A stretch of 64,000 nt of DNA from Labrys wisconsinensis. Lineage in GTDB: Bacteria > Pseudomonadota > Alphaproteobacteria > Rhizobiales > Labraceae. The stretch lies in assembly GCF_030814995.1 (NCBI RefSeq), contig NZ_JAUSVX010000012.1:62001-126000 (forward strand), read 5' to 3'. The translations under genes were made by a program, and so were the position numbers. Below, one piece after another: positions 55,896-59,474 of this stretch (positions are counted from its first letter, which is position 1; each line of letters opens with the position of its first letter). The notes beneath the pieces were generated by a model, which had not been told where the DNA came from, did no database searches, and saw only the letters and a program-made list of their open reading frames with translations.

Positions 55896-57560
55896 TTGGC
55901 AATTTTAGACTGTGGCGACTTCGATGACCCGGCGGGAGCGGTGGCCACTTTTCCGGCCGTCCAAGCCGCAGCACGAACCGTCGACCCAGCCAAGCCCGCA
56001 ACCCTGCTGCCGCTCGCACTGGCCCGGATGGCGGCGCAGGCCCGGCTCGGTGTTCCGCCGCTTCGGCAATCGCCGATCTCCCGCGACGAGACGACGGCAT
56101 TCGTCAGGTTGATCGCGGACGCACGACCGGAACAGCGGCAGAGGGCAGTCGATAACGTCAAGGCGACTCTTGAAGCCGGCTATGGTCCCGTCGCCCCTCT
56201 TGCGCTGGATATGGTCCTCCACGCGGCCAAGCTCGATCCGGCCGTGCTTTCCGGCTTGAACGAAGCACCGCGTGCGTCCGAGCCGGACAATCCAGCGATA
56301 CGGCAGCCCGTCGAACCACGCGCCGACGCCGCACCCCAGCAGAGCGCGCGGGAGGTCCAGCCTGAGCGGCAAGAATCCGGCACCTTCGAGAGCAGTCTCC
56401 CCACTCCGCCCGCTCAGGCGAACGCGATACCGTCGGAAACGACAAAGCTACGCAGGTTCATGCCGGGACCTACGTCTCCGGTCCCGTTCCCGGAAGACCC
56501 GAACCAGGCCTTTCTCGATCGCGCAAGGCTTGTCGACTATGCCGGAGCGGCGCCGGCCGAGCAGCCGCCGTCCTACTGGGACAAGTTCGCGCAGACGCCG
56601 ACGGGGCGCTTCCTACGGGACGCTTTTGAGGCGCTGAAGCTGCCTGGCGACGTCTATGCCGGCCGGATCGATCCTTGGTCGGAGGAGGGGCGAAAGCGGA
56701 CGACGGATCTTGCGGGGCTCGTCGCCGGCGGCGCCCCGGTAGCCGGCATGCCGCGATTGGCGGCTCGGGAAGCCGCGGCAAACGTGGAGGCGGAGCTGGC
56801 GAGCCGGAACGCGAGACTGTACAATCCACCGGTCAAGGACGTACGTCCCTTCAAGGAAGATTACCGCGGCGGAGCACAGGCCGATGAAACCGGAAGACTC
56901 CTCCACGACATCGACGGACGCCCCCTCGGAGCCCGTTTCGTCGTGGGTCGCAAAGAAGTTGGCGGAGGCGACGCCGCTCTACCGGAAGAAGCACTGGACG
57001 CCATTGCAGAGGCAACAACGGGCAGAGCTGTTGCGTTGGTACCGAAATCCGCCCTCGGACGTAACGTCGGCAGTGTCAAGGTCAATCGGTACAGTCGACA
57101 ACCGTTGAGTGCGGCCGTCTGGAACCAATTGACGGCGGCACAATTGCCTCGGGTTGCCGCCCACGAAATCGGTCACGTCATCGACCAGGCCGCCGGCGAA
57201 ATTCCGACCGAAGGATTGTCGCGCGAGCTGGCGCAGGTCTACAACACCCTCAACACTGGACAAGAGCGCACCCGCTCGCTGACCGGACCGCAGCATCAGG
57301 GCTACATTGGCGATGATGTTCCGCGTGAGCTGATGGCCGAAGCCATCCGCGCCTACATGGTCGATCCGAACTATCTGAAAGCCGTCGCGCCAAAAACCGC
57401 GGCGCGCATCCGGGACTATGTCAACGCCAACCCGAGACTGGCGGCGACGATCCAGTTCAATGCCGGCTCACCTTTCGGCCTGTTGACCCTCGATACCGGC
57501 GACCAGGCGGACGGCAGCCCGCTGCTCGACGTCCTCGAACGTCAGCAACGGAGTCCGTGA
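55896..57560 (+). pseudogene. phage structural/polyvalent protein remnant with zincin motif
   Basis: Open frame of 554 codons with no good start: an in-frame TGA lies at 55878 and the first possible start is a TTG at 55896. Residues 1-125 resemble the helical interior of long phage virion proteins (FVRLIADARPEQRQRAVDNV). A Pro/Glu-rich linker follows. The C-terminal domain has the metallopeptidase motif HEIGHVIDQAAGE near residue 428 and a downstream Glu in PRELMAEAIRAYMVDPNYLK, typical of zincin-like domains in large phage proteins. No capsid, tail or integrase genes are nearby. Base composition is milder than its neighbours. It is likely a 5'-truncated prophage relic. Confidence 0.7.
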
Positions 57561-58571: not shown

Positions 58572-58589
58572 CTGTTTCTTCGGAAACAG
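58572..58589. repeat. TTCG-tetraloop hairpin
   Basis: CTGTTTC and GAAACAG arms close a TTCG loop, an exceptionally stable RNA fold. It lies 161 bp upstream of the first peptide gene. Confidence 0.6.
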
Positions 58590-58629
58590 GAGCCCTTCAG
58601 AGGCATGATGTAGTGTATACTTGCGATTG

Positions 58630-58653
58630 GCACAACCATTGCGGTGGTTGTGC
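58630..58653. promoter_or_regulatory. 24-bp inverted repeat upstream of the peptide genes
   Basis: Arms GCACAACCA and TGGTTGTGC around TTGCGG, directly after the TATACT element and 97 bp before the first peptide start. Either an operator or a leader hairpin. Confidence 0.5.
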
Positions 58654-58749: not shown

Positions 58750-58980
58750 ATGCAGAAGTCGCGGAAGCAGAAAGATCCTGCAGAGGTCAAAGACGAGCAT
58801 GCATTGACCGAGACTGCTCTCGACGGCGTGAGCGGGGGTCAACAGGTCTACAAGAACGAGTTTCCCGGCGGCGTGAATCAGATGACCGGCCTGCGGCCGT
58901 TCGAGCCGTCCTTCGGCCCCAAGGGATCGATCTCGCAGGGCGAGGTCAACGAGAACCAGACAGACGACAATCTTCCGTGA
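58750..58980 (+). CDS. small peptide with double-glycine-type leader (RiPP/bacteriocin-like)
   Basis: 76 aa. GGGAG lies 7 nt before the ATG. The N-terminal third is charged and ends in ALTETALDGVSGGQQ; the pattern L-x3-x-L-x-x-V-S-G-G is that of double-glycine leaders cut by C39 peptidases, and of Nif11-type precursors. The remaining 45 residues (QQVYKNEFPGGVNQMTGLRP and a Gly/Asn/Ser-rich tail) have no Cys. There is no signal peptide or membrane segment. No C39 transporter or modification enzyme is adjacent, so maturation, if any, must use genes elsewhere. The precursor interpretation is an inference. Confidence 0.6.
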   Translation: MQKSRKQKDPAEVKDEHALTETALDGVSGGQQVYKNEFPGGVNQMTGLRPFEPSFGPKGSISQGEVNENQTDDNLP

Positions 58981-59075
58981 GCGGCCGGACGATCGGTCGG
59001 GCGCGATGGCGCGCGCCGATCCGATGGCCCCGCACGGCGCCTCGCCGATGAGACCGAAACCTGGAGACGACAGCA

Positions 59076-59246
59076 ATGAACGAGGACGCGAACGAAATCC
59101 GCCCGCTCGGGCCGGAGGAGATCGACGAGGTCGCGGGCGCTGATAAGCCGACCATGGTCACGCAGATCCAGTTCGGCAACCAGACCCTGAGCATCTGGGC
59201 CCAGTCCGACGTCCACGGCCTGGTCTGGATCGGACCGGCCGACTGA
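59076..59246 (+). CDS. 56-aa leader-like peptide, paralog A
   Basis: 56 aa, GGAG about 10 nt upstream. Leader-like N-terminus RPLGPEEIDEVAGADKP, again an acidic E-E-I-x-x-V-x-G-A pattern close to double-glycine leaders. The presumed core is MVTQIQFGNQTLSIWAQ and then a VHGLVWIGPAD end, beta-prone with two Trp. It is closely related to the next peptide in length, core and upstream DNA. Lies 95 bp after the 76-aa peptide gene. Function unknown. Confidence 0.6.
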   Translation: MNEDANEIRPLGPEEIDEVAGADKPTMVTQIQFGNQTLSIWAQSDVHGLVWIGPAD

Positions 59247-59303
59247 ACGCTAGCTGACGGCGCCCCCGCGGCGCCATGCACGCCCCCCGACATGGAGACG
59301 ACG

Positions 59304-59474
59304 ATGACGACACCCGACGACGAGGACATCTGCCCCCTGACGGCCGAGGAGATCGAGGCGACCTCCGGCGCGGAGACACCGATGGTGACGTTCATGCAGT
59401 TCGGCGACGTGACGCTGGGCATCACCGCCACCTCGACGTCGCATGGCCTGGCCTGGAAGGGCCCGGTCGACTGA
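59304..59474 (+). CDS. 56-aa leader-like peptide, paralog B
   Basis: 56 aa. The ATG at 59304 is preferred over 59292 because it places GGAG 6 nt upstream and gives the same length and layout as paralog A. The leader-like part CPLTAEEIEATSGAETP ends in SGA. The core MVTFMQFGDVTLGITAT and the end SHGLAWKGPVD align with paralog A at about half of positions (MVT, QFG, TL, HGL, W, GP, D). A single Cys lies in the leader, none in the core. Function unknown; it may be a secreted or modified peptide. Confidence 0.6.
   Translation: MTTPDDEDICPLTAEEIEATSGAETPMVTFMQFGDVTLGITATSTSHGLAWKGPVD

Follow-up and report, generated by a model that had tools for sequence, protein, structure and literature searches.

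Exported small peptides with a double-glycine leader are the closest described counterparts of the genes considered here. Leaders that end in GG, GA or GS and carry L(-12)-x3-E(-8)-L(-7) are the reported rule for C39 substrates (PMC6363468), and a leader consensus with a terminal G(G/A) is given in PMC3140520, citing Dirix 2004. The NHLP export system is described in PMC2887384, and small GG-motif proteins together with a C39 exporter are linked to biofilm formation in PMC4997328. We analysed a real trio of small genes, pep1, pep2 and pep3, whose products are probably secreted by an exporter that would act in trans.

The trio lies on the forward strand of the window, by which we mean the whole 64-kb stretch analysed (C12:62001-126000, in a genome of 8.9 Mb and 55 contigs). 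The earlier note had described three consecutive small frames on one strand, and they were recovered on re-reading. pep1 (58750..58980) encodes a 76-aa precursor and is recognised from its frame, its codon score and a homolog in Bradyrhizobium erythrophlei; pep2 (59076..59246) encodes a 56-aa precursor, recognised from frame, codon score and homologs; and pep3 (59304..59474), also with a 56-aa precursor, rests on the codon model, its paralogy to pep2 and a GGAG box. The ribosome sites proposed earlier hold, a GGAGAC box preceding all three starts at the correct spacing, with the start of pep3 moved from 59292 to 59304. Position 59292 is likewise open, and ATG 59304 is probably the start because the GGAG box (TGGAGACGACG-ATG) fits there and none stands before 59292; the codon model picks the same position. 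This codon-usage model, trained on the long frames of the 64-kb window, gives positive coding log-odds to all three genes (pep1 +10.4, pep2 +20.8 and pep3 +19.1), and GC3 amounts to 0.77, 0.91 and 0.93, pep3 being scored from 59292 in both cases. pep2 and pep3 share 53% identity over 53 residues, and their pN/pS of 0.83 indicates weak constraint.

The neighbours of the trio encode GST, DinB and TetR proteins. The downstream DinB gene has relatives (59-64% identical) in three of the four other genomes of the genus, and no other of the 11 window proteins tested adjoins these relatives in the 3.5 kb inspected. Upstream of the cluster, a 554-aa frame (55896-57560 of the window) resembles a metallopeptidase family only weakly (PF04298, at E 0.018 and below cut-off).

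The leaders carry the motifs that had been read from the sequence: that of pep1 (58750..58839) ends in LDGVSGG, that of pep2 (59076..59141) in EIDEVAGA, and that of pep3 (59304..59372), delimited by its frame and by leader comparison, in EIEATSGA. They are 22-30 aa long, and those of pep2 and pep3 end in GA, not GG. All three have the hydrophobic -12, -7 and -4 positions and GG, GA or GS at -2/-1, pep1 and pep3 with one deviation each. The pep1 leader keeps L-12, L-7, V-4 and GG and fails the loose and strict leader patterns because of Ala at -8, being caught only by a looser one; the pep3 leader deviates in having Thr at -4. The strict published consensus L-x3-E-[IL]-x2-[IV]-x-G-[GA] is matched only once when the 64 kb are read in all six frames, and that match is in pep2. 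When the loose pattern is applied to frames of 35-140 aa, two of the 312 window frames match (pep2 and pep3), and in 30 third-order Markov sequences of window length, with an average of 594 such frames, the mean is 0.13 matches and four sequences had one. The leader pattern thus exceeds chance. The earlier note had allowed for double-glycine or Nif11-type leaders, of which only the former stands: no Nif11 leader match (TIGR03798) was obtained for pep1-3 at E <= 1 in the profile search, and the 68 positions of this profile compare with 22-30 aa in the trio. Membership of the NHLP-leader family (TIGR03793, long and nitrile-hydratase-like) is rejected as well, no profile match being found for pep1-3.

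The pep1 core (58840..58977) has 46 aa and a conserved end, FGPxxSISQGEVNxxQTDxNLP, seen in the homolog alignment and in pN/pS, which against the B. erythrophlei homolog is 0.29 over the last 24 codons, denoting constraint, and 0.55 over the whole alignment. The pep2 core (59142..59243; 34 aa, from structure prediction and alignment) has three predicted strands, and the pep3 core (59373..59471; 33 aa) was delimited from alignments. Cys is absent from all three cores, and Ser/Thr are present. The pep2 model shows a helix at 13-20, just ahead of the cut site, and then the three strands (mean pLDDT 66.9, low), a fold that no solved structure matches at E <= 0.001. For pep1 no stable structure is predicted (pTM 0.11, uninformative), and comparison of the peptides with solved structures and folds returned nothing convincing. 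No named family in Pfam, NCBIfam, PADLOC or PHROGs matches the cores above cut-off or at a convincing E; pep1 as a VP1 pheromone (E 0.004) or a CTB family member (E 0.22) was rejected, both lying far below cut-off, and no RNA family reached its gathering score. In the titles and abstract starts retrieved, which cover the literature in part, we found no description of the core motifs or of orphan GG peptides of the group, and neither core motif is present among the literature matches listed. We regard the cores as two new families of a known kind of exported-type peptide.

No full-length NHLP or C39 exporter was found near the trio in C12:62001-166000 (the window and fetched stretches), in keeping with the earlier observation, and the split system then supposed has its likely counterpart on another contig. 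The genome-wide check for C39 ABC transporters that had been suggested gave two strong hits, scoring 120.6 and 120.1 bits, and one of the two belongs to a full NHLP system. On its profile scores (TIGR03796, 948.6 bits against a cut-off of 853.3; TIGR03797, 795.9 against 709.4; TIGR03794, 306.7 against 156.2), contig C9 carries a complete NHLP-type export system, with C39 peptidase/ABC, second ABC and HlyD proteins in one locus, as well as a TIGR03896-like protein below cut-off. If translation begins ahead of the called ATG, in a part where the frame is still open, its C39 domain shows Gln-Cys-His-Asp, which we take to comprise the catalytic Cys and the usual Gln before it. Three further small GG-leader peptides are encoded next to the exporter, adjoined by a protein with methyltransferase and PF10119 domains, and one of the three peptides has a leader that shares 50% identity with that of pep1. 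Beyond the four alignment rows, further GG peptides in the genome were sought with only matches of E >= 0.07 in frames of at least 238 aa. The NHLP HlyD protein exceeds its cut-off in one of five genus genomes, this one only.

Two observations concern other peptides of this kind. The core of one C9 GG peptide (L011:2324-2503; GKVQMQDLSFVKKVDVASP), behind a double-glycine leader, resembles a segment of the type VI secretion protein Hcp (PF05638, E 3.8e-4, below cut-off; PDB 1y12, E 0.039). Another member of the genus has a microcin-like GG-leader frame, rich in Gly/Ala (L025:8228-8512), just upstream of HlyD and C39 ABC genes.

A search with the C9 exporter protein confirmed at least 560 loci, of which the best 80 were taken. 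The small frames of these 80 loci include a single clear relative of pep1 (L047:16635-16826; phmmer E 2.4e-8), in B. erythrophlei GAS478, which shares the conserved core end. It is located 1.6 kb downstream of the second NHLP-type ABC gene, after two other GG-peptide frames, and the exporter proteins of this locus are 53, 37 and 40% identical to their C9 counterparts. Apart from the own genome, no pep1 relative was detected among 60 relatives. The pep1 alignment gave matches at E <= 1 in 78 of 397 genomes of the order, none convincing, the best besides the own genome (E 0.003) lying in a 1571-aa frame. Another match (genome G755, E 0.011) was rejected as a GG peptide with another core; the GG peptides of that genome are almost identical to GG peptides in a Bradyrhizobium sp., which suggests that the order searched is the Hyphomicrobiales, to which Bradyrhizobium belongs. 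Among 26 NHLP-bearing genomes, reached from 27 proteobacterial loci chosen by title among the best 80, the only strong match to the pep1 alignment was B. erythrophlei, itself an alignment row. No homolog was confirmed in viral contigs and plasmids, where the single plasmid match (E 0.6) falls inside an annotated oxidoreductase gene.

For pep2/3, a first scan of the genome contigs returned 43 pattern matches and confirmed none, the patterns being strict; a later search found homologs. Besides the own genome, none was seen in 60 relatives or in 385 genomes of the class, but with the same alignment E fell below 1e-3 in three of the 26 genomes that bear NHLP loci, which were B. erythrophlei (2.0e-8), a MAG of the Hyphomicrobiales (1.3e-5) and one Bradyrhizobium sp. 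(1.4e-4), with four more, at E between 0.014 and 0.094, excluded from the count. The three counted homologs have the canonical GG, in contrast to GA in pep2/3. In B. erythrophlei one contig carries both the pep2/3 and the pep1 homolog, about 4.1 Mb apart. In the family to which B. erythrophlei belongs, an alignment of five sequences gave matches at E <= 0.01 in 11 genomes out of 391. Three of these had E below 1e-27, namely B. erythrophlei, which is an alignment row, and a further two; a fourth had 1.4e-5, and the remaining seven ranged from 8.6e-4 to 8.7e-3. A number of the weaker matches are clearly peptides of the GG type whose cores look strand-like; they frequently come as tandem pairs, and one ends in GA as in pep2/3. 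The weaker matches are only candidate core homologs, because the leader contributes part of the score. Homologs with a conserved leader/core layout therefore exist in relatives, and the proposal of the earlier note does not fall for want of them.

We fetched 18 stretches of 12-20 kb around pep1 and pep2/3 matches, not every family match being included. GG-peptide frames were recognised in 14 of the 18 (all except L176, L177, L199 and L200), a share that is biased because the stretches were chosen as matches, and a full-length NHLP or C39 exporter in none; in L174, L177 and L202 the exporter matches cover only generic ATPase stretches of about 200-250 residues. Homologs commonly sit apart from an exporter, and the split arrangement is seen repeatedly in the group, beyond this one genome. 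A search strategy built around exporters would overlook such peptides, since these 14 loci have GG-peptide frames and no such exporter within 12-20 kb. Two genomes, one a Bradyrhizobium sp., carry nearly identical orphan GG-peptide trios (L205:9798-11482 and L206:8449-10173), with no exporter within the fetched 20 kb.

The region upstream of pep1 contains, on the forward strand at 58628..58642 and 122 nt ahead of the start, a perfect 10/10 match to TGGCAC-N5-TTGC, which we take to be the sigma-54-type promoter consensus. The window has one such site against 0.17 expected (one or more turned up in 15 of 100 shuffles), and it is the only distinct 10/10 site in 35 scanned sources, one of which (L012) repeats part of the window. 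It is overlapped by a terminator-like stem, a ten-pair inverted repeat (58630-58653) that could equally be an operator; this pattern was found once against 0.6 expected. The palindrome TGTTTC-N4-GAAACA (58573..58588), 40 nt upstream of the sigma-54-type site, occurs once in the window and in 0 of 100 shuffles and is hypothetically an activator site. Its looser form, TGT-N10-ACA, occurs 4 times against 2.85 expected, no more often than chance would give, and we do not claim NifA control because of this and because TIGR01817 is above cut-off in none of five genus genomes. pep1 may be under sigma-54 control, which would not be general, because other GG-peptide starts show background-level sites: among 41 such starts from 17 sources the 10/10 site stands at pep1 alone, and for the remaining 40 an 8/10 site falls into the range of 20-400 nt in five cases, against 4.1 expected from background. 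A shared sigma-54 regulon is thereby rejected. The C9 peptides are without a sigma-54-type site, and the upstream DNA of the window, C9, C26 and L047 has in common only short chance-level matches.

We consider it likely that the trio encodes short-leader, double-glycine-type C39 substrates that are cut and exported in trans, with cores that are probably unmodified. The exporter would be encoded elsewhere, most likely as the C9 NHLP system, whose C39 peptidase domain would bind the leader helix through L-12, I/L-7 and V/T-4 and cut the precursors after GG or GA; the ABC/HlyD channel would then release cores of 46 (pep1), 34 (pep2) and 33 (pep3) residues. The pep1 core is predicted to be disordered, and the related pep2/3 cores are predicted to be strand-rich. 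Their putative role is most likely that of bacteriocin-like or signalling peptides released to neighbours. Pointing to export in trans are the above-chance leaders, the reported C39 leader rule, the full C9 NHLP system with its three GG peptides and, given the upstream start, Gln-Cys-His-Asp in the C39 domain, the 50% leader identity, the NHLP-adjacent pep1 homolog, and the pep2/3 homologs, all with canonical GG, which occur in 3 of the 26 genomes reached through NHLP loci, whereas among 385 genomes of the class only the own one matched. What speaks against it is the missing cis exporter, an NHLP HlyD in 1 of 5 genus genomes, the pep2/pep3 pN/pS of 0.83, Ala -8 in pep1, Thr -4 in pep3, GA in pep2/3, a single pep1 homolog (among the best 80 loci), and C9 peptides that lack the sigma-54 site.

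The same kind of precursor might instead leave through the second C39 ABC/HlyD pair, on contig C26 (L010:8065-11468), which we hold to be unlikely. The C39, ABC membrane and ATPase domains of this exporter are above Pfam cut-offs, and the lack of any recognised GG-type peptide frame beside it (20 kb, L010) counts in its favour, but its C39 domain lacks the Gln that usually precedes the catalytic Cys, it stays below all NCBIfam equivalog cut-offs shown and is not NHLP, and the pep1 homolog sits near NHLP-type genes. That the trio encodes RiPP precursors, altered before export by an enzyme encoded elsewhere, is quite unlikely. NHLP exporters do often serve modified peptides (PMC2887384), and a methyltransferase-domain protein stands beside the C9 peptides; yet the cores are Cys-free, no modifying enzyme lies near the window genes, and none was recognised around the orphan homologs, whose neighbouring genes were listed, a minority of them with profile annotation. 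For a RiPP of the lanthipeptide or TOMM type, the cores offer Ser/Thr and no Cys. Of the modified or secreted precursors suggested at first, the leader-bearing precursors stand, and the idea of an implied modifying enzyme is not supported, the cores being Cys-free and nothing showing modification. Decaying or non-functional genes left by a lost operon would suit the very narrow distribution, the pN/pS of 0.83 and the missing cis exporter, but coding scores with ribosome sites, homologs elsewhere that retain leader and core, the constrained pep1 end and the frequency of orphan placement among homologs make decay very improbable.

If export in trans is correct, a set of secreted peptides of the group could be uncovered by deleting a single exporter. 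As a tentative and rather doubtful extension, NHLP-bearing Hyphomicrobiales might run a repertoire of short-leader peptides, scattered genome-wide, via one or a few trans exporters, the peptides often being encoded in tandem twos or threes and having cores of about 30-45 residues, many strand-rich; the trio would be a sigma-54-controlled node of it. Different cues would then load different peptides onto a shared exporter.

Compared with class II bacteriocins and microcins that use C39 (PCAT) exporters, the trio has the same short leader, L-12/I,L-7/V-4 positions, GG/GA cut site and small cores, but neither an adjacent exporter nor a recognised immunity gene, nor an above-cut-off match to a named family; the same-operon exporter of class II bacteriocin operons is not found in C12:62001-166000. 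The NHLP/NHLM export system (TIGR03794/03796/03797) is present in trans and the pep1 homolog lies near NHLP-type genes, whereas the short leaders of the trio differ from the long nitrile-hydratase-like leader that gives NHLP its name. EbfG1-4 of Synechococcus elongatus likewise form a cluster of small proteins with a GG motif and depend on a C39 exporter, PteB (PMC4997328); a biofilm role is shown there, and the likeness to the trio is one of description. Prochlorosins (PMC10783134) differ in their Nif11-type leaders and LanM-type-modified cores from the short leaders and Cys-free cores of the trio, and resemble it in that their precursor genes lie dispersed around the genome, singly or in tandem.
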